Shown: in pieces, positions 1 to 36,176 of the stretch
Numbering within the stretch: the stretch's first letter is position 1
Layout: the number at the start of each line of letters is the position of its first letter
Source of the DNA: a virus
DNA: 36,176 nt
Virus record (IMG/VR): IMGVR_UViG_3300003322_000433
Location: 1-36,176 of that record
Direction: 5' to 3' (one strand)
Notes under the pieces: model-generated
The model's input: only the letters and a program-made list of their open reading frames with translations
What the model was told of the DNA's origin: nothing
Databases searched by the model: none
Translations under genes and position numbers: made by a program

Positions 1-451
1 CGCCGGAGTAGCCGCTCGCCGTGGCGCTCTTGTTCGCACCATTCGCTACGACGGCCTTTCGATCTTCATCCGTCTGCGCGCCATTGGCAGGCGTGCAACG
101 ATCCATTGTGTATTGGATAGCGGCCTTGATGAGTCCAGGCAGTGAAATTTCCGCCTTCACGGTCAGGCGCGAACTGGCGATCTTGCTGTCTTCGTCGTGG
201 CGAGCCAGCGTGCCGGACTGCTCGACAATGGCGAACTTGGACGTGCCGGCGCGGTAGTAGCGCAGTACGTGCAGCGGATACCCGCAGGCGTGGAAGCCTG
301 AATTGCACGCCTTCACTTCGCCGTGATGTTCGTAGGTCTTGCCAATCTCGTATTGGAAATCGCGGCACTTCCAGTCAGGGCTAAAGCCCTTGTAGGACGT
401 GACCACTTCCTGCGCCGGCATGACCGGTTTCGCTTTCTTCTTGGTAGCCAT
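1..451 (-). CDS. DUF7666-type protein with GAATASG repeats, N-terminal part (runs off the window start)
   Basis: This is the first 150 codons of a leftward gene that continues at the other end of the window (36176 to 35935). It starts at the ATG at 451-449, with an AAGGA ribosome site just upstream. The protein opens with a Lys-rich stretch, then YKGFSPDWKCRDFQYEIGKT and a CNSGFHACGYPLHVLRYY segment. These are typical of the DUF7666 domain found in phage accessory proteins. The last residues before the edge (SATASGYSG) are the first unit of a repeat. Function is unknown; the repeat could form a beta-solenoid or act as a spacer. It lies in the leftward early operon just upstream of the ERF gene. 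I am confident it is a real gene but not of its function. Confidence 0.85.
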   Translation of the reverse strand, partial: MATKKKAKPVMPAQEVVTSYKGFSPDWKCRDFQYEIGKTYEHHGEVKACNSGFHACGYPLHVLRYYRAGTSKFAIVEQSGTLARHDEDSKIASSRLTVKAEISLPGLIKAAIQYTMDRCTPANGAQTDEDRKAVVANGANKSATASGYSG

Positions 452-531
452 TTCGATCCTTGGTCACGCGCTACGCGGCGCGTCGGGTTGTCTCTTGCCA
501 GCTACCGGCTGGCGCGGTGTTGGAATTCGGT

Positions 532-553
532 GAACCGTTGTTTGGGACGGTTC
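532..553. other. perfect 7-bp stem hairpin
   Basis: GAACCGT, an eight-base loop, then ACGGTTC, about 80 bases upstream of the DUF7666 gene start. There is no T-run on either side. It could lie in the leader of the DUF7666 transcript. Confidence 0.4.
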
Positions 554-698
554 CAGCCCTATCCGACATGTATCGGAGTCCGTCTTTGATCCAAGACCGG
601 TGACGCTTCAATTCAAGGGTTGGGCCGCTATCTCAAGCGGGTGCAGCTACTAGGCCGCATGCAGGCCGATCTAGTTACATGGCAGTCCCTCCCTGTCA

Positions 699-749
699 TC
701 ACCGCGCGTTAGGCGTCGCGGAGTCCGCCAGATCATCGTGCGTTAGGCG
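699..749. repeat. pair of 16-bp imperfect direct repeats
   Basis: Two copies of CA[CT]CG[CT]GCGTTAGGCG in the same orientation, spaced about 34 bases (three helical turns) apart. They are identical over the last ten bases. This could be a pair of protein binding sites; no partner is evident. Confidence 0.45.
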
Positions 750-768
750 CTACCGTGTCGCCGGTAGC
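749..768. other. perfect 7-bp stem hairpin
   Basis: GCTACCG, a six-base loop, then CGGTAGC. It lies immediately next to the second direct repeat of the gene-free segment. There is no adjacent T-run, so it is more likely an RNA structure or operator than a terminator. Confidence 0.4.
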
Positions 769-780
769 CACGCGGATCGC

Positions 781-858
781 TCACCTTGCACCCGGCCTGC
801 TTTCCAGACACGTACTACTGGATGCCCTCGTTATTGCCCGATCAAGCGTAGTTCTCAT
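781..858 (-). CDS. possible 25-residue coupled peptide
   Basis: A 25-codon reading frame starts at an ATG that overlaps the stop of the upstream gene (ATGA). It encodes a basic, Ser/Thr/Arg-rich peptide. ATGA coupling is the rule in this operon, which is the only argument for it; the peptide resembles no family I know. It could simply be a chance frame at the edge of the gene-free segment. Confidence 0.22.
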   Translation of the reverse strand: MRTTLDRAITRASSSTCLESRPGAR

Positions 859-1076
859 GCCCTCTGCCTCACATCAAACTGCTCAGTCCCCTGCGCCTCC
901 CAGCACTCGACCGCTTCCTGAAGCGTCGGAAGCTTCGCAGTCCTCAAACCGCACGGCGGGCATTCCAAGTGGTGCAAATCCTTGCCAAGCGTGACGTAGT
1001 GCTTCGGCTGCTTCCCGCAACGACACGCGGCCAGTGATCCGGTCATGCGTTCTTCGCGCTGCATTCCGCCAGTCAT
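855..1076 (-). CDS. Lar-like small zinc-ribbon protein
   Basis: This encodes 73 residues. The ATG overlaps the stop of the preceding 29-residue peptide gene (ATGA). The core has a CRC pair near residue 18 and an ECPPCG pair about 22 residues later, followed by an LQEAVECWEAQ helix. That pattern (two Cys pairs, then an [A/V]xxW helix) is typical of the Lar restriction-alleviation family of small phage zinc proteins. In that family Lar modulates type I restriction; here this is inference from pattern only. Its place in the immediate-early leftward operon fits an anti-host role. Confidence 0.6.
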   Translation of the reverse strand: MTGGMQREERMTGSLAACRCGKQPKHYVTLGKDLHHLECPPCGLRTAKLPTLQEAVECWEAQGTEQFDVRQRA

Positions 1077-1162
1077 AGCAACCCCTCAACTCTCAGGTAG
1101 ACGACAAGCCCGGCAGCGATCCAGCACAGCGCGAGGCAGGCGTTTTCGGCGCGGGCGCTCAT
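1073..1162 (-). CDS. 29-residue single-pass membrane peptide
   Basis: This short frame is coupled at both ends. Its ATG overlaps the upstream stop (ATGA) and its own TGA overlaps the next ATG. The peptide has one hydrophobic stretch (ACLALCWIAAGLVVYL) long enough to span the membrane. No family is recognised. The two ATGA junctions and the membrane segment make translation likely; function is unknown. Confidence 0.55.
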   Translation of the reverse strand: MSARAENACLALCWIAAGLVVYLRVEGLL

Positions 1163-1425
1163 GCGGCACCTGTGCAGCGGGCGAGGGCGGCGGCAAGCCT
1201 GCGATCAACAGAGACACCTTCCGCGACGATTGCGCCTGACGCATCCCAGCGGCGTTGAAAATCCTGCTGCGCCTTAACCGCCTCGATCAGCTCGGCCACG
1301 GCAGCGATACCCGCCTCCGCACGCTCGATTCGCGGACCGTTGCCAGTCACGCCAACGCTCGCCGCCTTCGCGATCCGCACAACGCCGCGCAGGTCCTCAA
1401 GCACATCCGCAGTCTTAGCGTTCAT
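1159..1425 (-). CDS. early leftward protein of unknown function (88 aa)
   Basis: The 88-residue, Ala-rich, helical protein starts at an ATG overlapping the stop of the gene before it. It has VLEDLRGVVRIAKAAS near the N-terminus and a central AELIEAVKAQQDFQRRWDAS stretch, suggesting an alpha-helical or coiled-coil fold. No catalytic motif or membrane segment is seen. It is the third gene downstream of the leftward promoter. Function unknown. Confidence 0.7.
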   Translation of the reverse strand: MNAKTADVLEDLRGVVRIAKAASVGVTGNGPRIERAEAGIAAVAELIEAVKAQQDFQRRWDASGAIVAEGVSVDRRLAAALARCTGAA

Positions 1426-1679
1426 CGTGTCAGCTCCAGTTTCGTCAGTTCATCCGCCCGCGTGTGCAGTTGGTTCATTACCGCGCGACGCAATTCACGG
1501 CCTGCCGCGCATTCATCCAACGACATGAGAAGGGAAATAAGCAGTTGCGCCTCCATGCCGTTTTCCGGGTCAGTCGCTTCGCACAGCGCCTCCCAAACGT
1601 GCATCGGGTCCTTGCTCATCCGCGCGAAGTTCGCATCGGCGCAGGCGCGCACGGTATCGGCCATGTCGGCGAGGGTCAC
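1422..1679 (-). CDS. early leftward protein of unknown function (85 aa)
   Basis: This 85-residue protein starts at GTG, whose bases overlap the TGA of the preceding gene (GTGA). The sequence is acidic and helical, with LLISLLMSLDECAAGRELRRA in the middle and no recognisable domain. It is the second gene of the leftward immediate-early operon. Function unknown. Confidence 0.7.
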   Translation of the reverse strand: MTLADMADTVRACADANFARMSKDPMHVWEALCEATDPENGMEAQLLISLLMSLDECAAGRELRRAVMNQLHTRADELTKLELTR

Positions 1680-1867
1680 GACTGACCCCCACAGCCAGGC
1701 AACTTGACCCGCCGACCCATCGCATTACCAAGGTGCACGTGATACGCCGCGATCCGCGCAGCGAACTCGCGGCGTGCCAGGTGGTTCCAACCAGCTTCCT
1801 TTTGTGTGCGCATCGCGGCGCATGCAGCTCGGCGGTAGAAGCGGAGGTCTTGTAGCGGGTCGGTCAT
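1676..1867 (-). CDS. first gene of the leftward operon, unknown function (63 aa)
   Basis: I chose the ATG at 1867-1865 because a GAGGGGAAG ribosome site sits just upstream and the leftward promoter lies 40 bases further back. A longer frame would start upstream of the predicted transcription start. The product is small and basic, with a central helix (REFAARIAAYHVHLG). No family is recognised. As the promoter-proximal gene it is probably made first after infection. Confidence 0.65.
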   Translation of the reverse strand: MTDPLQDLRFYRRAACAAMRTQKEAGWNHLARREFAARIAAYHVHLGNAMGRRVKLPGCGGQS

Positions 1868-1905
1868 TTTGCTTCCCCTCGGTGGCGTTCGTGGGCGATG
1901 GGGTG

Positions 1906-1934
1906 ACATTACGCCTTTGGTTTTTGCATGTCAA
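1906..1934 (-). promoter_or_regulatory. leftward sigma-70 promoter (PL-like)
   Basis: Reading the minus strand, TTGACA (1934-1929) is followed by exactly 17 bases and then TAATGT (1911-1906). The -35 is a perfect consensus and the -10 matches four of six. Transcription would start near 1899, about 30 bases before the first leftward ATG. This is the strongest promoter I see in the window and should drive the leftward early operon. Confidence 0.85.
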
Positions 1935-1958
1935 CACCCTTGCGTGAAGAATTTTGCA
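1922..1958. promoter_or_regulatory. candidate operator pair in the switch region
   Basis: TTTTGCA occurs at 1922-1928 and again at 1952-1958, in the same orientation and 30 bases apart. One copy lies in the leftward promoter spacer and the other in the rightward promoter spacer. A repressor binding both could control both promoters, as lambda Cro/CI do. This is inference from position only. Confidence 0.35.
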
Positions 1959-1968
1959 ATGCTACAGT
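1940..1968 (+). promoter_or_regulatory. rightward promoter for the Cro-like gene
   Basis: TTGCGT (1940-1945), 17 bases, then TACAGT (1963-1968), preceded by a TG one base upstream (extended -10). The -35 is weak, but the extended -10 compensates. Transcription would start near 1975, only about three bases before the Cro-like ATG. The mRNA would then be nearly leaderless, which agrees with the lack of any ribosome site there. Confidence 0.5.
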
Positions 1969-1977
1969 TCGCACGCC

Positions 1978-2181
1978 ATGAAAATAACCAAACGGCAGGC
2001 CAAGGCCAAACTTGGCATAGTTTCTGACGTGCGGCTCGCCGCATACCTGTCCAAGCGTGGGCACAAGATCACGCGCCAAGCGTTGCATTATTACGAGGAG
2101 GACGCCGTTCTATCGTCGTCGCTTCGTGCCTGGCTGCTTGAGAATGAGCCGGAGTTGTTTCCGGTTAGGCGGCGAGCATGA
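1978..2181 (+). CDS. Cro-like helix-turn-helix repressor
   Basis: This is a 67-residue basic protein whose size and layout fit the Cro/CI-like family. A helix-turn-helix covers roughly residues 12-35: KLGIVSDVRLAAYLSKRG, then ITRQALHYYEE as the recognition part. It is the first rightward gene, divergent from the leftward operon, as cro is in lambdoid phages. There is no Shine-Dalgarno sequence before the ATG, and the predicted transcript start is only a few bases upstream. No CI-type partner is found. It probably binds the 1900-1970 region and turns down early transcription. Confidence 0.7.
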   Translation: MKITKRQAKAKLGIVSDVRLAAYLSKRGHKITRQALHYYEEDAVLSSSLRAWLLENEPELFPVRRRA

Positions 2182-2441
2182 AAGCGCCAGACATCTTATC
2201 CAAAGCCGCGCAGCACATTGCGGATCGTGCGGCGCAGCGCGACAAGCCGGAAGGCGAGCGCAGCATGGACCGCGCCGTACATGCTTTCAACGCGATTACC
2301 GGCCACAAGCTGAGCGAGCGAGACGGCTGGCTATTCATGGTGCAACTGAAAGCGGCGCGCGCCACAGCCGGCGCACATAACCCTGACGATTACGAGGATG
2401 GGGCGGCCTATTTTGCGCTTGCTGGTGAGGCGGCAGAGTGA
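2178..2441 (+). CDS. DUF6378-like early phage protein
   Basis: The 87-residue protein starts at an ATG overlapping the end of the Cro-like gene by four bases. It carries the pattern RSMDRAVHAFNAITGHKLSE, then DGWLFMVQLKAARA, then a PDDYEDGAAYFALAGEAA tail. I recognise this from the DUF6378 family of phage proteins. The family has no established function that I know of. It is translationally coupled into the rightward early operon. Confidence 0.65.
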   Translation: MKAPDILSKAAQHIADRAAQRDKPEGERSMDRAVHAFNAITGHKLSERDGWLFMVQLKAARATAGAHNPDDYEDGAAYFALAGEAAE

Positions 2442-2740
2442 ACTACCGCAGCCGCCAGTTCTTAGACCTGTGTTACCAGTTCCCCTGCATGCTGCTCCTG
2501 CCGTGCTGCGAGGGTGGCGACGCGGGCGAGCCTTGCCATTCGAACCAGTCCATACACGGAAAAGGTGGCGCGCTCAAGGCGCACGATTGTTTCGTTGTGC
2601 CTGGCTGCCGATCCTGCCATCGCGAGCTAGACCAAGGCCGAACCATGACGCGCGAAGAAAAGGCTGCCGCTTGGAATCGAGCCTATTGGCAATTTCTTGC
2701 CGAGCTATTCCTGCTCGGCCATCTTGAGGTGAAGTCATGA
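2438..2740 (+). CDS. DUF1364/YbcO-like putative HNH-type nuclease
   Basis: This encodes 100 residues with a GTG start overlapping the preceding TGA (GTGA). It opens with MNYRSRQFLDLCYQFPCM and continues with CHSNQSIHGKGGALKAHDCF and CRSCHRELDQG. The His, Cys-pair and second His arrangement matches DUF1364, the family of E. coli YbcO, a small HNH-like protein. In lambdoid phages these lie in recombination regions and are thought to cut branched DNA. Here it sits in the early rightward operon upstream of the replication genes. Confidence 0.7.
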   Translation: MNYRSRQFLDLCYQFPCMLLLPCCEGGDAGEPCHSNQSIHGKGGALKAHDCFVVPGCRSCHRELDQGRTMTREEKAAAWNRAYWQFLAELFLLGHLEVKS

Positions 2741-3003
2741 CGAGAGACGAAGCAAAAAAGCTGCTGCCTATCATTCAGGCGTTTGCGGAGGGGGAGACTG
2801 TTCAGATTAGCGGCGTATCCACGCCCGAGTGGGCAGACGTTGCGAATCCTGAAGACGTTGCATTCGGAAGCAAAGCCAAATACCGCATCAAGCCAAAGCC
2901 GCGCGAGGTGTATCTGTCGCTGCGTGAAGATGGTTCAGTTGCCGCAGTCTTCTCATCGCCGCATTGCGCCGGCGCAATCAAATTCCGCGAAGTGATCGAA
3001 TGA
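2737..3003 (+). CDS. small early protein of unknown function (88 aa)
   Basis: An ATG overlapping the upstream stop starts this 88-residue protein; an AGGTGA ribosome site lies in the end of the gene before. Residues 8-35 (LLPIIQAFAEGETVQI, then TPEWADV) and the short YRIKPKPREVYL segment resemble a common small phage protein that pairs a helical N-terminus with an 'IKP' strand. I know no function for it. Confidence 0.65.
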   Translation: MTRDEAKKLLPIIQAFAEGETVQISGVSTPEWADVANPEDVAFGSKAKYRIKPKPREVYLSLREDGSVAAVFSSPHCAGAIKFREVIE

Positions 3004-3326
3004 AGATCGCTGCCGCCATACTTCTCCTTTCCGCCACTGCCGCCGAGTGCAAAGACTGGCTTCACGTTGTGATGGTTCAGCCGCACCCAAGGGCCGCGCA
3101 ATCGCTGGTCTACTCGGAATGCTCCGTGGACAGCTTCGGCAGCTACTACGTGCTGACCTGCGACGGCGTGGCGTCTGGCAGCGCTTTCACGTCCACAGTG
3201 GGCGACAGCCTGACTCTCGACATAGGGCCGGCTCCGGTGCGCCCTGAGACGCGCTACGTGGGCGAGTGCACGCGACAGGGTGACGATTTCGCGTGTGACG
3301 ACACGATATTTTCGGTGATTGATTAG
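3000..3326 (+). CDS. probable exported small protein (108 aa)
   Basis: The ATG overlaps the TGA of the preceding gene. The N-terminus (MKIAAAILLLSATAAEC) looks like a Sec signal peptide, with possible cleavage after Ala-Ala-Glu or near it. The rest is rich in beta-type residues and has five further Cys, compatible with a disulfide-bonded periplasmic domain. No family is recognised. An exported early phage protein could act in superinfection exclusion; that is speculation. Confidence 0.6.
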   Translation: MKIAAAILLLSATAAECKDWLHVVMVQPHPRAAQSLVYSECSVDSFGSYYVLTCDGVASGSAFTSTVGDSLTLDIGPAPVRPETRYVGECTRQGDDFACDDTIFSVID

Positions 3327-3478
3327 CGGCCTCTGCCGTAGTAGCGTAACAACGGGTTTCGTACCCGCTTCGCCGGCTAGCGGTGCACTGATCCTGCATC
3401 GCGAACAACTTCCCCCGAGGTCTGCCGGCGTGGTTTCCTTGCTTCGGGGCCAAAACTTGCAGCTCCGGGGGGAGCAAA
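3327..3478. other. short intergenic stretch with a small hairpin
   Basis: About 150 bases between the early genes and the next small gene. It contains CGGGT-TTCGT-ACCCG near 3353-3367. The T-arm resemblance prompted a search for a tRNA, but no cloverleaf could be built. No T-run follows, so it is not an intrinsic terminator. I see nothing else in it. Confidence 0.4.
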
Positions 3479-3646
3479 ATGCGATCGATACGCGAAGTCA
3501 TGGCAAAGATGCCGGAACTGCAACGGTTCCGAGCGTGGCTTGAATCCGATGCGCCAGCAACCGAGGAACAGCTAGCCGAGGCGCGTCGAATCCTGGCGCA
3601 GCCTGAGAGGCAGCGCGACCTTTTTACACCGCACCCATTGCAATAG
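3479..3646 (+). CDS. small helical protein of unknown function (55 aa)
   Basis: A strong GGGGGGAG ribosome site lies seven bases or so before this ATG, which argues for a real gene despite its size. The product is charged and helical: MRSIREVMAKMPELQRFRAW, then an acidic linker and a Leu/Arg-rich helix ending in FTPHPLQ. No family is known to me. It ends 12 bases before the palindromic operator-like site upstream of the replication genes. Confidence 0.55.
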   Translation: MRSIREVMAKMPELQRFRAWLESDAPATEEQLAEARRILAQPERQRDLFTPHPLQ

Positions 3647-3657
3647 CCGTAGAATCG

Positions 3658-3677
3658 TGTAGAAAATACATTCTACA
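3658..3677. promoter_or_regulatory. palindromic operator-like site upstream of the replication genes
   Basis: TGTAGAA, six bases, then TTCTACA: a perfect 7-bp inverted repeat. A third half-site, GTAGAA, lies just upstream at about 3649-3654. The site is 16 bases before the replication gene ATG and overlaps a possible promoter (TTGCAA at 3638, 16 bases, TAGAAA at 3660). This is the usual geometry for a repressor operator. The binding protein is unknown. Confidence 0.5.
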
Positions 3678-3693
3678 GTCGAATGGGGGCGAT

Positions 3694-4425
3694 ATGAGTG
3701 TAACTTTTACCAAGCTGTTCAGTTCCATCACTGAATCCACGGTGTGGGCAGAGCCCGACCATACCCGCATTGTCTGGATCGCCATGCTTGCAATGGCCGA
3801 TCACGCCGGCCGCGTCTGGGCCAGCATTCCAGGGCTGGCCAATCGCGCCAGGGTCTCAATAGACAAGTGCGAGGAAGCCCTGAACACCTTCCTGTCTCCC
3901 GACAAATACAGCCGCACAAAGGACTTTGATGGGGTGCGAATAGAGGCGATAGACGGGGGGTGGCGCCTTCTTAATCATGCGAAATACAAGGCGATTCGTG
4001 ATCACGAGTCGATCAAGGAATCGAAGCGCAAATCCATTGCCAAGAGGCGGGCAGAGGAAAAGGCGGCGAAAGAAATGTCTACAGTAGACCGTGGTAGACA
4101 CAATGCAGAGTCAGATACAGAGGCAGATAGAGAAAAGAAAGATCAAAAGAAAGAGCCTGGCGTTTCACGCCAGCAGGCAGGCACTCGACTAGCAGAAGAT
4201 TGGGTATTGCCGGAGGACTGGAAGGCTTGGGCAGCGGCAGAAAGACCAGACGTGGACATTGCCCAGCAGGCAGCCAGCTTTGCCGATTACTGGCACGGGG
4301 TTCCGGGGCAGAAGGGCCGCAAGGCCGATTGGCTCGGGACGTGGCGGAATTGGATTCGCCGAGCCAATGCGTCGCGTAAGCCGCAGCAGAACGGAGCCTA
4401 CCAGCCTATGCCGGGTGAGATATGA
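3694..4425 (+). CDS. replication initiator-like protein (DnaT/gpO-type)
   Basis: This 243-residue protein has the two-part layout of phage replication initiators. Residues about 5-100 form a winged-helix-like region (KLFSSITESTVWAEPDHTR, SIPGLANRARVSIDKCEEAL, WRLLNHAKY). A highly charged Lys/Glu/Arg linker follows (about 100-155). The C-terminal domain has LPEDWKAWAAAERPDV, FADYWHG and WLGTWRNWIRRA, like DnaT/gpO-type C-termini that bind the helicase or ssDNA. Its stop overlaps the start of the primase-helicase gene, as expected for partners. It probably recruits that enzyme to the origin. Confidence 0.7.
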   Translation: MSVTFTKLFSSITESTVWAEPDHTRIVWIAMLAMADHAGRVWASIPGLANRARVSIDKCEEALNTFLSPDKYSRTKDFDGVRIEAIDGGWRLLNHAKYKAIRDHESIKESKRKSIAKRRAEEKAAKEMSTVDRGRHNAESDTEADREKKDQKKEPGVSRQQAGTRLAEDWVLPEDWKAWAAAERPDVDIAQQAASFADYWHGVPGQKGRKADWLGTWRNWIRRANASRKPQQNGAYQPMPGEI

Positions 4426-6917: not shown

Positions 6918-7445
6918 ATGCCGAGAAAGACCTATCCAAGCGATATCAAGCGCAAAAAGGAGGCCGACGCCAAAGCCGAAACCAGAGCTGCGGCAATGCT
7001 GGTGGAGAAAGAGCGCCAGCAGACCGCGTTCCTTGCCGCGTTCGTGGAAATGGGCACTGATCTTCGCGCCCGGCAGGCAGTGAAGCTCACGAAGTCGGTG
7101 GTGGAGCACTGGAAGGCCACAGACCCCAAGTTCCTGCTTGCCTACGAGGCCGCGGACGAGGATATCGGGCAAAAACTGGAGGGCAAGGCCGTCGATCTAG
7201 CCCTAGAGACAGCGGGCGGGCCAGGGGAGAAGACCCTGCTCACCCTGTTGGCAGCTCGCAACGAGCGCTACCGAAAGAATCTGAACATCCGGCATTCTGG
7301 CCCCGACGGTGGGCCTGTAGGCTTGGCATTCACGAGCCCTGAAGCTGTTAAAGCTCAGTTAATTGCTGTGGCGCACCAATTCCCCACTGTTGCGCCGATC
7401 ATCCGGCAGACACTGTCCGAAGTGCTTGAAGCGCTACCGAAGTAA
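6918..7445 (+). CDS. terminase small subunit-like protein (TerS)
   Basis: The 175-residue protein has a Lys/Ala-rich N-terminal helix. A helix-turn-helix-like region follows (FVEMGTDLRARQAVKLTKSV, then VEHWKATDPKFLLAYEAA), and then a helical oligomerisation part ending in LLTLLAARNERYRKN. This order, including the '[L/F]LxARxxxxYR' phrase, is typical of phage small terminases that recognise the packaging site. Position supports it: it opens the packaging/virion block, though three genes separate it from TerL rather than the usual zero or one. Start chosen at ATG 6918. Confidence 0.65.
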   Translation: MPRKTYPSDIKRKKEADAKAETRAAAMLVEKERQQTAFLAAFVEMGTDLRARQAVKLTKSVVEHWKATDPKFLLAYEAADEDIGQKLEGKAVDLALETAGGPGEKTLLTLLAARNERYRKNLNIRHSGPDGGPVGLAFTSPEAVKAQLIAVAHQFPTVAPIIRQTLSEVLEALPK

Positions 7446-9177: not shown

Positions 9178-10655
9178 TGCTCGACGTCGCCAACACGGCG
9201 GCAGAGCAGCATGCGTTGGGCATGCTTGGCGCCTTGGCCAAAAAGCTCATCGCGAACCTGCTGGACACCTTTTTTCCTGAAACGGGGCCATTCGCCCGCG
9301 ACCTGTTCCCGAAGCACATGCAGGCCATTGCCGAGACGTGCACGGCCAAGGTGCTGTCGATCTTTGGTGGCAACCGAGCGGGCAAGACCCTGCTCCTGGC
9401 CTACATCGCCTCCGTCTGGCTGACAGGGCGCTATCCCTGGTGGTGGATGGGCCGCAAGTTCCCGAAGCCCACGGACGGCTGGGTGGCGACGCAGACCAGC
9501 TCGCTCATGGTCAAGGGATTGCAGAAGTACCTGATCGGCTCGGATGGCACCGGAGGCATGATCGCCGCCGAGGACATTGTGCATATCGACTGGTCCCCGG
9601 CGATGGGCATGGCGTCGCGCGTCCATATCCGCCACCAGCCGACCGGGCTTATCTCGACACTGGAGTTTAAAACCTACGATATGGGTTGGCGCCGGTTCCA
9701 AACGGCGACGCTTGATTGGGTCATCCTGGACGAGGAACCGCCCGCGATGATCTTCTCGGAAGCCCTGACCCGTACCGCAAACAGGGAAGGGATCGGCATC
9801 CTCGGGTTTACTGCCCTGCAAGGCGTGACCCCGCTCGTGGCCCACCTTTGGCCCGAGATTGCCGGCGGCGCGCCGGAGGAGTTCATGGACGCGGAGGAAG
9901 TGGTCCGCGACATGATGAAGCGGGTATGCATCGGCTGGAAGGACGTTCCGCCGTCGGTGCTGCCTATCGCCGAGCGCGCAAGGTTGTCCGCATCCTACCT
10001 GCCACACGAGCGACAGGCTCGTATGGACGGCGTGCCCATGCTGGGCCGCGGACTCGTGTACCCATTGGGGCAGGACTCGTTCACTTGCGAGCCGTTCGAG
10101 ATTCCCGCCGAGTGGCCGCGGCTGTGCGCAGTGGACCCGGGCGGTACCCCTGGAGGCACAGGCAAGACGGCCGCCATCTGGTGTGCCTTCGACCCGTACA
10201 ACTTCATCTGGTACGCCTACAGCGAGCACTATCAGGATTGGGCGCCGATCCCGGTGCACGTCTCGGCCCTGAGCAAGCGCGGGAAGTGGATTCCGATGCT
10301 GCTGGACCCCGCCGGGCGCAACATCACGGATGGCAAGGCGGTGTATGCCGAATACGTGCAGGAGTTGCAGGAGGTCAATGAGAACTGGCCTGTCCACAAG
10401 GCGGACAAGCGGTTTACCGTGGGTCGCGTGGAACTGTTCGGGGAACTGCAATCAGGGTCGCTCAAGGTGTTCAGCACCCTGCGCCACACCCTGGCCGAGC
10501 ACCGCCAGTACGTCATCAACGAAAAGAGCGACTATGTGGGCCCCCATCACCTGTGGGACTGTTTGCGCTACATTGTGCGCGGCAAACACCACGCGGCCGT
10601 GAAGCCTTCGCGCGGCGCCTCCGATGTTCCCATGAAAGAGCAGAGGTTTTTCTAA
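9177..10655 (+). CDS. terminase large subunit (TerL)
   Basis: The 492-residue packaging motor has all the expected landmarks. Walker A is GGNRAGKT (64-71). Walker B is WVILDEE (181-187), including the catalytic Glu. The C-terminal RNase H-like nuclease carries Asp residues in AVDPGGT (D320), MLLDPAGR (D377) and HHLWDCLRYI (D461). I chose the GTG at 9177 because it overlaps the previous stop and has GGAGG at 9166-9170. TerL docks on the portal, pumps DNA using ATP and cuts it. It overlaps the portal start by one base. Confidence 0.93.
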   Translation: MLDVANTAAEQHALGMLGALAKKLIANLLDTFFPETGPFARDLFPKHMQAIAETCTAKVLSIFGGNRAGKTLLLAYIASVWLTGRYPWWWMGRKFPKPTDGWVATQTSSLMVKGLQKYLIGSDGTGGMIAAEDIVHIDWSPAMGMASRVHIRHQPTGLISTLEFKTYDMGWRRFQTATLDWVILDEEPPAMIFSEALTRTANREGIGILGFTALQGVTPLVAHLWPEIAGGAPEEFMDAEEVVRDMMKRVCIGWKDVPPSVLPIAERARLSASYLPHERQARMDGVPMLGRGLVYPLGQDSFTCEPFEIPAEWPRLCAVDPGGTPGGTGKTAAIWCAFDPYNFIWYAYSEHYQDWAPIPVHVSALSKRGKWIPMLLDPAGRNITDGKAVYAEYVQELQEVNENWPVHKADKRFTVGRVELFGELQSGSLKVFSTLRHTLAEHRQYVINEKSDYVGPHHLWDCLRYIVRGKHHAAVKPSRGASDVPMKEQRFF

Positions 10656-23824: not shown

Positions 23825-26065
23825 ATGCCAATCCAGTGGCTTGATAGCGCCGCGCAGCCTAAGAGAAAGATCACTTGGGAGGATGAGGCGCAGCCGCTGG
23901 AATTGGGTGTTACGCCACAAGCGCACGCGTCGCTGCCACAGGAAGACATTCATGCGCAATCCGTCGTCCCAACCCTGATTTCCAGGGAGAGAACCCCAGC
24001 CCAAAAGGCCGCCGCCGAAGTGGCCGCCAGCATGAGTGCCGTGCAGCAGCACACGGCGCAGTTTGGCCGCGGATTCGCCGAGCTCGGGCAAGCGATCAAG
24101 CAGCTCAATGTCAACACCACAGCGGCTCTGACGCCTGCGGCCGATGATTCGGCACTCAAGGCCGGCGCCAAGCTTGCGGCTGCTCGCATGCTCAACGTCA
24201 GCCCTTCGGACGATCAGGCCAAAGCCCAGGCCGAGGCAGATGCCTATAACGCGCAGGTCGCGGATGAGGCGAAAATCTACAATGCCGGGCTTGGCAAGCT
24301 CCCTGGCGGCACTGTAGCGCCGATGGCTGCTCAGATGGTCGCCACGCTGCCTACCGCGCCATTGGTTGGCGGCGCGCCGACGGCCGGAGTCGTTGGGTCG
24401 GCCTTGCGTTCAGCGGGAACAGGGGCTGCTGCGGCGGCCTTAACGCAGCCAGTCACAGAGGGTGACGACTATTGGACCTCCAAGGCAAAGCAGGCAGGAC
24501 TAGGCGCGGCCGTTGGTGGCGCTACGGATGTTGGATTGCGCACGCTGGGCCGCGTCGCCGAGGAAGCCGCCTCCCCAGGCCGTGCGACGCGACTCTTTGA
24601 CCAAGTGACCAAGGCACGCAGTCCAGAGGCGCAGAAAATCGCCAAAGAGGGCGCCGAACTGGAACAGCGCATGCAGCTAGGGCTGACCCCCGGCATGCAG
24701 TCTGGCAACAAGGCCTTGATCGGCGCAGAGAACACCGCGCGGCAGTCCGTGTTTACCGCCAATGCTGTGGGCGAGTCAGACCGCAAGATCGCCGACCGCT
24801 ACGCGGCGCGCGCCAACGAGCTGGTGGATAGCCTTGGCGGCGCTACGGACTCGGCGACGGCTGGCTCACAGATCGCCGGCACGACCAAGCGCGCCATGCA
24901 GGCACTGCAATCCGCCCGTCGGGCGCAGGCCAAAGAGGACTTCGGCGTGGTCGATGCCATGACCAAGGGTTCCGCGAGCATTGACCCTAATGCCTCCAAT
25001 GCCGTCCTGCGTGACGTGCTGAGCACCTACGAAGGCGCCGGCACCGATGCGGGCGACGCGTTTGCACGGTGGGCAAAGAAACAACTTTCCAATGTGGACC
25101 CGACCGTTGCGGCCGCAGCAAAGAAACTCGGCAACCAAAAGCTCGCCACGGCGAATGCAGCGAGCGCGCCCGCGCAAGGAAACCTCGCCAAGCTGCTGCA
25201 ACTTCGCTCGCACATGTCGGAAGTCGCGTCCGGGCAGTCTGGAATCAGCGGGAAGCCAGTGGATCGCATGATTGCCTCGCGCATGCTGGAAGCTATCGAC
25301 CAAGACATAGAGGGGGCCGCGCAGAACATCGGCGGCGACCTTGGAGCGGCCTTGCGCAAGGCGAACGCGAACTACCGAGACTACTCGCAGAAAATCGACG
25401 GGGTGAAGAACGGACCGCTTGGTAAATTGCTTGGTGATGACTTGGTTGACCATGCCGGCAACGGGTTTTCGTCTGTTGCGCCAGAGCAACTTTTCGACCG
25501 GTTCTCGAAGCTGGAGCCGAGCCACATGCGTGTGGCGGTGAAGCTATTGGGCGATACCAACCCGCAGGCGTTGCAAGCCGCGCGCGCGGCTTACGTGCAG
25601 CGCGCTATCGACAACGCAGCGCCTACGGCTGGCGGTGGCATGCATCAAGCCCCGGTGCGCCCCGCAGCCTTCCTGAACTCACTGGCGAAGGGACAGAAGG
25701 ACAAGGAGCGCCTCGCGGCCCTGTTCGATGACAAGGCGAAGGCGCAGATTGACGATCTATTGAAGGCCGGGCAGCGGATCGGCGACAAGACCGGATACAA
25801 CGCATCGGGCACGGACGTTCGCGCGGAGACGCGCCAGCTCCTCGGGGTGCTGAAGGATTGGACCGTTAAGGGCGTGGCGAGCACCGCTGGGCAGGCGATG
25901 GGGCTGCGACAGGTGGCTAAGGCGATGGCCGATCCTGGCGCGCGTGAAGCGTTACTGACACTCCGTCGGCTCCCGCCGCAGGCTGCCGAGGCGCGGAAGG
26001 CTATCGCTTACCTCAATGCGTTCTATGCGACCCAGCCCGAGCGCCCAGAAGATGGCGCAGAGTAG
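23825..26065 (+). CDS. large internal virion (ejection) protein (746 aa)
   Basis: The second-largest gene encodes an Ala-rich, helical protein. A long hydrophobic/glycine stretch at about residues 155-205 (GGTVAPMAAQMVATLPTAPL, then VVGSALRSAGTGAAAAALT) could enter the membrane. Such stretches occur in podoviral ejection proteins that form a channel across the envelope. A helical repeat-like body follows. No lysozyme or peptidase motif is visible. Its 3' end overlaps an opposing open frame with two membrane segments. Confidence 0.6.
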   Translation: MPIQWLDSAAQPKRKITWEDEAQPLELGVTPQAHASLPQEDIHAQSVVPTLISRERTPAQKAAAEVAASMSAVQQHTAQFGRGFAELGQAIKQLNVNTTAALTPAADDSALKAGAKLAAARMLNVSPSDDQAKAQAEADAYNAQVADEAKIYNAGLGKLPGGTVAPMAAQMVATLPTAPLVGGAPTAGVVGSALRSAGTGAAAAALTQPVTEGDDYWTSKAKQAGLGAAVGGATDVGLRTLGRVAEEAASPGRATRLFDQVTKARSPEAQKIAKEGAELEQRMQLGLTPGMQSGNKALIGAENTARQSVFTANAVGESDRKIADRYAARANELVDSLGGATDSATAGSQIAGTTKRAMQALQSARRAQAKEDFGVVDAMTKGSASIDPNASNAVLRDVLSTYEGAGTDAGDAFARWAKKQLSNVDPTVAAAAKKLGNQKLATANAASAPAQGNLAKLLQLRSHMSEVASGQSGISGKPVDRMIASRMLEAIDQDIEGAAQNIGGDLGAALRKANANYRDYSQKIDGVKNGPLGKLLGDDLVDHAGNGFSSVAPEQLFDRFSKLEPSHMRVAVKLLGDTNPQALQAARAAYVQRAIDNAAPTAGGGMHQAPVRPAAFLNSLAKGQKDKERLAALFDDKAKAQIDDLLKAGQRIGDKTGYNASGTDVRAETRQLLGVLKDWTVKGVASTAGQAMGLRQVAKAMADPGAREALLTLRRLPPQAAEARKAIAYLNAFYATQPERPEDGAE

Positions 26066-29530: not shown

Positions 29531-29751
29531 CGCGATACCCTCGGCGGTTTTGGCAAGCGGACTCTACCGCAAAAAGCAAGCCCCCGAAACCGGGGGCTCA
29601 CAGTGGCGGCAACGTGCTGTTGCGTCTTGGGAAGGGTGCCGCCCGGGCTCGACAATGCCTGCCGCCCGCATGGCGCCTCACGGCGCGAGCCCCCCGGAGA
29701 TTTGGGGATAAGGGTTCCCCAGGGGTGAAGGTCGCAACGCCACGCCGCGAC
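29531..29751. other. intergenic region holding the terminator
   Basis: About 220 bases. Besides the terminator it holds a weaker hairpin near the end of the 69-residue gene (GGTCGC, 11 bases, GCGACC) with no clear T-run. I could not find a convincing promoter for the lysis block; TTGC-type hexamers occur but with poor spacing. Confidence 0.5.
29570..29598 (-). terminator. leftward intrinsic terminator
   Basis: On the minus strand, AGCCCCCG, a GTTT loop and CGGGGGCT form a perfect 8-bp stem, followed by TGCTTTTTG. It separates the leftward early/middle genes from the surface-protein and lysis genes. Those late genes would need their own promoter, read-through or antitermination. Confidence 0.82.
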
Positions 29752-34894: not shown

Positions 34895-35044
34895 TCATGG
34901 TTCGGGGGTGGTCTTCCGAGGGTTCTTAGGTATCCGCTTCCGACCTTTCACCGCGCTGCGCCACTGGCCCCAGGGCGAAACCTTGGCAGCTGCGCGGCCT
35001 GCTTTCTTGCGGTTTATGACGTCGCCGGCATATCGCTTGCTCAT
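34895..35044 (-). CDS. very basic small protein (49 aa)
   Basis: The ATG overlaps the stop of the ERF gene (ATGA). The 49-residue product is Lys/Arg-rich throughout (MSKRYAGDVINRKKAGRAAA; SAVKGRKRIPKNPRK). DNA or RNA binding is likely from charge alone; it may assist the annealing protein. No family is recognised. Confidence 0.6.
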   Translation of the reverse strand: MSKRYAGDVINRKKAGRAAAKVSPWGQWRSAVKGRKRIPKNPRKTTPEP

Positions 35045-35832
35045 CGCTTGCTCAGCCGCTTCAGTGCGCTTCGGTGGTGGCTTGGCAGTAGGCCCCAAAT
35101 GCACGTTTTTTCCTCGGTCGGCAGCTTGCAGTCGGTCCAAATCTTGAGCGCGCCGGCAAGATTTCCTCCATCGGCCGCACTGTTCATTTCGGCGGCAAAC
35201 TGCTCGATGACGATTTGCTGCTCTTGCGGGAAGTCCACTAGGCGCACGCCATCCTGTGGGTCGCCGGCCCGTGGTTCCCTCTTCTGCGCGCCAGCCTTGC
35301 GCCCGTCGTCGTCCTCGCCGTAACTGGTAAGGTTCAGCAGCGCCCCGGCCGTATAGCGCTTGCCATAGCTCACGCTCGACGCAACGGCCTGTACGGGGTT
35401 CTTCCCACCACTGGGGTCCGCGGGTAGCTTGATCGTCGTGCGCTCGCTGTGTCCGCCCCTGTGGCTCAGCACGCCGGTAATGGCGATGCCTTCGGCGAAG
35501 TCAGTGCGGAATGACAGGGCAAAGCCGTATTTGGTCAGGATCGGCTTGATCGTGTCGTTGATATCCTCCCACAGCGCATACTTGTATCGGCCTGTGACCT
35601 CGCCGCGCTCCTTGATGCTCGGCAACTTGGTTTGCACCTCGGCCAGATCGCGCGCAAACTCGGCAGCCGCCTGGCGCTCAATCATGCGCTCGTGCATTGC
35701 CATCAAGCGTTCCATCTTGTCTATGTCGCAATTCGGGTCGCTGGCTGCGCGGGAAATGACCGATAGCAGTGATGCTGCCTCGCTCGGAGCGGCCATAACC
35801 GGGAACTCGTCTTTCTTCACAACAGCGTTCAT
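35041..35832 (-). CDS. erf: ERF-family single-strand annealing protein
   Basis: The 263-residue protein matches the ERF superfamily of phage recombinases. The signature region includes EVTGRYKYALWEDINDTIKP, ILTKYGFALSFRT, and later KNPVQAVASSVSYGKRYTAG and ALLNLTSYGEDDDG. A helical C-terminus follows. ERF binds ssDNA and anneals complementary strands, supporting circularisation of incoming DNA and recombination. GGAG lies before the ATG. NinB and the small nucleases further along the same operon are probable partners. Confidence 0.88.
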   Translation of the reverse strand: MNAVVKKDEFPVMAAPSEAASLLSVISRAASDPNCDIDKMERLMAMHERMIERQAAAEFARDLAEVQTKLPSIKERGEVTGRYKYALWEDINDTIKPILTKYGFALSFRTDFAEGIAITGVLSHRGGHSERTTIKLPADPSGGKNPVQAVASSVSYGKRYTAGALLNLTSYGEDDDGRKAGAQKREPRAGDPQDGVRLVDFPQEQQIVIEQFAAEMNSAADGGNLAGALKIWTDCKLPTEEKTCIWGLLPSHHRSALKRLSKR

Positions 35833-35934: not shown

Positions 35935-36176
35935 TTACGCTTCGACAAATTCGCCGCGCTCATTGAGCCAGTAGAACGTGTCTTCCTTGATTCCGTCATG
36001 GCCGACTATTGCGGCCTTGGCGTGGACGATCTTCATGTTGTCATCGCGGTACGTGAGGAACAGCGCGCAGCCGTTTTTGCCTTTTGCTTTGCCTCGATAG
36101 CCGCTCGCCGTGGCAGCGCCGTAGTAGCCGCTCGCCGTGGCAGCGCCGGATTTGCCGCTCGCCGTGGCAGCGCCGT
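35935..36176 (-). CDS. DUF7666-type protein with GAATASG repeats, C-terminal part (runs off the window end)
   Basis: This is the end of the gene that begins at 451. On the minus strand it encodes repeats of GAATASG plus two variable residues (KS, YY, YR), then GKAKGKNGCALFLTYRDDNM, a 'KAAIVGHDGIKEDTFYW' segment and the end LNERGEFVEA. The last 50 residues match the C-terminal domain often paired with these repeats in phage proteins. Joined to the first part it gives a 230-residue protein. The true number of repeats is uncertain. Confidence 0.85.
   Translation of the reverse strand, partial: GAATASGKSGAATASGYYGAATASGYRGKAKGKNGCALFLTYRDDNMKIVHAKAAIVGHDGIKEDTFYWLNERGEFVEA
36100..36176. repeat. 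tandem repeats: 21-bp core with 6-bp variable spacer
   Basis: Three identical 21-bp cores (36100-36120, 36127-36147, 36154-36174) are separated by GTAGTA and GGATTT. Each core encodes GAATASG on the minus strand. The window starts with the last four bases of such a core, a GGAGTA spacer and a partial core at 11-25. Spacers change two residues at a time, while cores are identical at the DNA level, which suggests recent unit expansion. Confidence 0.9.

Follow-up and report, generated by a model that had tools for sequence, protein, structure and literature searches.

Antitermination sites of the nut type are placed in the early leftward operon of phage lambda. A second type, untranslated RNA that folds into hairpins within an early phage transcript, is represented by putL and putR of HK022, two copies of about 70 nt that resemble each other, comprise two stem-loops and are found near their promoters (PMC9378689). 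Gene-free gaps as such occur in EBPR podovirus 1, a phage of similar size to the one studied here, in which several of them span 200–700 bp. The segment that we have analyzed shares with the lambda nut sites its location in an early leftward operon, but differs from them in that a boxA-like core motif was not found. With the put elements it would share the character of an untranslated hairpin RNA in an early transcript, but it amounts to about 400 nt, is present in one place at a distance of about 1 kb from the promoter, and has no second copy.

The window analyzed is the whole 36,176-base virus record IMGVR_UViG_3300003322_000433, a divergent podovirus-like, unclassified bacterial virus with a lambda-like layout. 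Its rightward genes comprise a Cro-like gene, named by position and sequence with no family match, a replication initiator and a primase/helicase, while small early genes, DUF7666, ERF, NinB/Orf and an HNH nuclease are encoded leftward. The head proteins are remote from those of all named phages, with a best match of 36% for TerL (EBPR podovirus 1) and of 21–27% for the portal protein. As the DUF7666 frame runs on the minus strand from 451 down to 1 and then from 36176 to 35935, and as the resulting protein of about 230 residues aligns with its relatives across this contig junction, the record is effectively circular. The features that frame the segment or bear on its interpretation are:

855 to 1867, minus strand: five tightly packed small genes between promoter and segment
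452 to 854, minus strand: gene-free, probably transcribed segment of 403 bases
1 to 451, minus strand: amino-terminal part of the DUF7666 gene, remainder at 35935 to 36176
35041 to 35832, minus strand: gene for the ERF single-strand annealing protein, next in the operon after DUF7666
3694 to 4425: replication initiator gene
6918 to 7445: TerS

Within the DUF7666 gene, at 36098–36176 and continuing near position 1, we also observed a tandem repeat with a 27-nt unit (2.9 copies, 92%), whose copy number at the contig junction could be a matter of assembly.

No gap in the leftward operon is longer than this segment, which is also, stretches where the map misses a gene excepted, the largest gap in the gene map. 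As had been stated in a preliminary description of this DNA, it holds no gene. The three minus-strand frames contain 7, 8 and 7 stops, and the resulting 22 stops on the putatively transcribed strand exceed the expected 14.5 (p=0.0055). With codon usage trained on the genome's confident genes, each of the six frames scores negative, and the six-frame translations, with X at stops, matched no PHROG or Pfam family; a single plus-strand ORF gave a PHROG match at chance level (E=0.36). With no open frame, no residual coding signal and no family match, a protein-coding gene or pseudogene was rejected, as were coding relics. A minor feature on the minus strand is GGAGG-GACTGCC-ATG-TAA at 675–692, a strong ribosome site followed at once by a start-stop pair, which occurs nowhere else in the genome (expectation 0.42 in shuffled genomes) and resembles the bar minigenes of lambda, possibly by chance.

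The preliminary description had further reported at least three perfect hairpins. With a stem of at least 5 bp and a loop of 3–10 nt we find nine, where shuffles average 2.84 (p=0.001, in tests made after the segment had been picked for its hairpins); four of them have stems of 6–7 bp:

466 to 483: perfect hairpin, 6-bp stem, 6-nt loop, lying close upstream of the ribosome site of DUF7666
497 to 513: perfect hairpin, 6-bp stem, 5-nt loop
532 to 553: perfect hairpin, 7-bp stem, 8-nt loop
562 to 577: perfect hairpin, 5-bp stem, 6-nt loop
582 to 597: perfect hairpin, 5-bp stem, 6-nt loop
625 to 640: perfect hairpin, 5-bp stem, 6-nt loop
702 to 721: hairpin, 5-bp stem, 10-nt loop, overlapping one copy of the direct repeat
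749 to 768: perfect hairpin, 7-bp stem, 6-nt loop
803 to 822: perfect hairpin, 5-bp stem, 10-nt loop

The earlier picture of a structured segment stands as far as these hairpins are concerned, but does not extend to an overall structure, the global folding energy of either strand being equal to that of its shuffles (z −0.04 and −0.27). An excess of folding is confined to pairs within 20–24 nt (z about −2.9 for a span of 20 and −2.7 for 24); z is −1.2 at a span of 30 and about 0 at 60 or without limit. At span 20 the segment stands near the top of 90 windows, and over 180 windows of both strands it comes third and sixth; it is equaled or surpassed in hairpin richness by the windows at 3652, where the initiator gene starts, at 9652 (TerL) and at 24852, two or three of which are coding stretches. 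The local hairpin excess is thus real, but not unique in the genome. A GTAGC hairpin motif occurs in four copies with 0.4 expected, which is not significant when all 5-mers are allowed for. When the 109 nt preceding the DUF7666 gene are folded, the ribosome site of that gene is unpaired. The searches turned up no close relative of the phage from which covariation of the hairpins could be read.

The segment also contains a direct repeat, previously described as a pair of 16-bp repeats three helical turns apart, which in our analysis is slightly longer:

698 to 715: copy 1 of the direct repeat, 18 nt
732 to 749: copy 2, 18 nt, identical to copy 1 in 16 of 18 positions, at a spacing of 34 bp

An equally good pair arose in one of 300 mononucleotide shuffles and in none of 600 dinucleotide shuffles, and with gaps allowed, the alignment of the pair lengthens to a degenerate tandem duplication (about 34 nt). 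Scanned for as a motif in viral contigs, the direct repeat gave ten unrelated matches, many of them simple repeats. Its core GTTAGGC recalls the boxes of integron attC sites, a likeness that was dropped, as the two copies have the same orientation and the inverse box GCCTAAC is absent from the plus strand. A CRISPR array was rejected, since there are two repeats only.

Two features on the minus strand concern transcription:

1934 to 1906, minus strand (1906 to 1934 of the window): sigma70-like leftward promoter, TTGACA-17-TAATGT
552 to 475, minus strand (475 to 552 of the window): C-rich, G-poor stretch of transcript, 78 nt, C/G 1.72, 97th percentile of the strand

The promoter, missed by a simple consensus scan because its second hexamer matches in only three positions, scores higher than any other promoter-like site on the genome's minus strand. 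The preliminary description had the segment transcribed from a leftward promoter ahead of DUF7666 and ERF; such a promoter-like site is present, and transcription across the segment, which we infer from it, is likely. The five small genes in between follow each other without gaps, neighbors overlapping by four bases. As a strong intrinsic terminator is found on the minus strand at 29601–29576, one transcript could cover both the segment and the recombination genes. Rho action at the C-rich stretch is conceivable; note that Rut-like C spacing is common on the minus strand, with 1129 matches. The promoter overlaps an inverted repeat, TGACAT...ATGTCA (1904–1934), that adjoins the Cro-like gene and is likely an operator.

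The reading that we tentatively place first is that 452–854 is an untranslated intercistronic RNA of a pL-type transcript, lineage-specific and, if it acts at all, acting in cis to tune read-through or decay before the DUF7666/ERF part. On one side of the segment lie the five overlapping small early genes as a block, on the other those for DUF7666 and ERF. Ribosomes would leave the last small gene at 855, so that about 400 nt of RNA would be exposed and would form short hairpins one after another, each independent of the next, with the C-rich stretch near the 3' end. The exposed RNA could then set the amount of transcript that reaches, and survives in, the DUF7666/ERF part, either by Rho-dependent termination or by RNase processing. 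This reading draws on six non-coding frames, on stops and hairpins in excess and a repeat beyond chance, on the strongest minus-strand promoter lying upstream of gapless genes, on an unpaired DUF7666 ribosome site, and on the C-rich stretch. It is weakened by the lack of a homologue and hence of covariation, by a fold that equals shuffles at span 60 and overall, by the equally hairpin-rich windows elsewhere, by the frequency of Rut-like C spacing, and by the selection of the segment before its hairpins were tested. Where the preliminary description proposed a regulatory RNA, an untranslated leftward RNA finds support in the local hairpins, in the promoter upstream and in the lack of any gene. 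The more specific alternatives that it named fail where they were tested. The RNA would be untranslated in vivo and may affect downstream expression, but any function is probably local and modest. Spare DNA is scarce in phages, so an untranslated stretch of 400 bp in the middle of an operon is a reasonable candidate for early-gene control, and if such control were confirmed, it would be exerted at a point between the genes for early takeover and those for recombination. It is quite improbable that the segment represents a previously undescribed phage regulatory RNA, in which about nine independent mini-hairpins and a duplicated linker motif would govern the passage of expression from the small early to the recombination genes.

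Nearly as likely as a cis-acting RNA is an inert spacer, a remnant of gained DNA or of a gene lost in this lineage that is now functionless and whose hairpins are accidental; the segment would then be ordinary. No DNA homologue was detected in phage and plasmid collections, and a 24-base exact scan gave no match. In 795 genomes of two bacterial families, no more than two stretches of 32–42 nt were matched, the stronger of them inside an unrelated GGDEF-type gene. We further looked at 30 DUF7666 loci from 21 viral contigs, 6 bacterial contigs and three phages. In most of these a mechanically called ORF on the same strand stops about 130 bp or less from the start codon, the largest distance being about 290 bp; the segment, or a conserved DUF7666 leader, was present in none of those compared by DNA. 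By these comparisons, the gap ahead of DUF7666 is a peculiarity of this lineage. Record L023, which holds a relative of the primase (73%), has no detectable DUF7666, nor was a similar segment present in the part fetched, and no relatives of the neighboring gene at 855–1076, of TerL or of the portal protein were found in the viral contigs. The preliminary description had counted a segment that is unconserved and transcriptionally silent as evidence against its proposal; at the level of sequence the segment is indeed unconserved, in collections that may lack near records and yielded no close relative of a phage whose lineage is hardly sampled. The global fold and the hairpin richness of other windows, coding ones included, likewise suit an inert spacer. 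Against it, neither residual coding signal nor a family match marks a lost gene, and hairpins, repeat and stop codons all exceed shuffles.

To return to a functional RNA, the segment might instead give rise to a small RNA of its own, either processed out of the pL transcript or driven by a dedicated promoter, that acts in trans on host or phage RNAs. Its hairpin-rich, untranslated nature would suit this, but promoter-like scores within the segment reach 7.8 at best versus 12.8 for pL, a terminator-like site is absent from its minus strand, and long complementarity to the rest of the phage was not found. Neither the covariance models of Rfam 15 nor a tRNA/tmRNA search with ARAGORN produced a match, and tRNA remnants were rejected. 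We consider a trans-acting RNA unlikely.

A site acting as DNA, be it a replication origin, an operator cluster or a packaging site, is improbable as well. The two direct repeats and several inverted repeats with half-sites about one helical turn apart could be read in this way, but the half-sites are all different and the repeat has two copies only. An origin, as contemplated in the preliminary description, finds no support in an AT-rich patch or iteron array, the most AT-rich 40 bp of the segment reaching just 52.5%, and the initiator and TerS genes are located elsewhere. An antitermination site of the nut or put type, suggested by the position in an early leftward transcript of lambda-like layout, is very unlikely, since the minus strand of 1–4000 lacks the boxA core GCTCTT that would precede a boxB hairpin, and since the minus strand of 452–854 is no more similar to the plus strand of the rightward gene-free stretch (3327–3480) than shuffles are, whereas putL and putR are alike, short and close to their promoters. 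A put RNA would also bind the beta-prime zinc-binding domain and antiterminate without a protein.

Two other gene-free stretches were noted. In the rightward operon, 152 bp on the plus strand at 3327–3478, upstream of the replication genes, fold with −63 kcal/mol (z −1.7). On the minus strand, the 221 bp at 29531–29751 contain the strong intrinsic terminator and fold better than shuffles (z about −2.2); a discrete structured RNA is more to be expected there than at 452–854.
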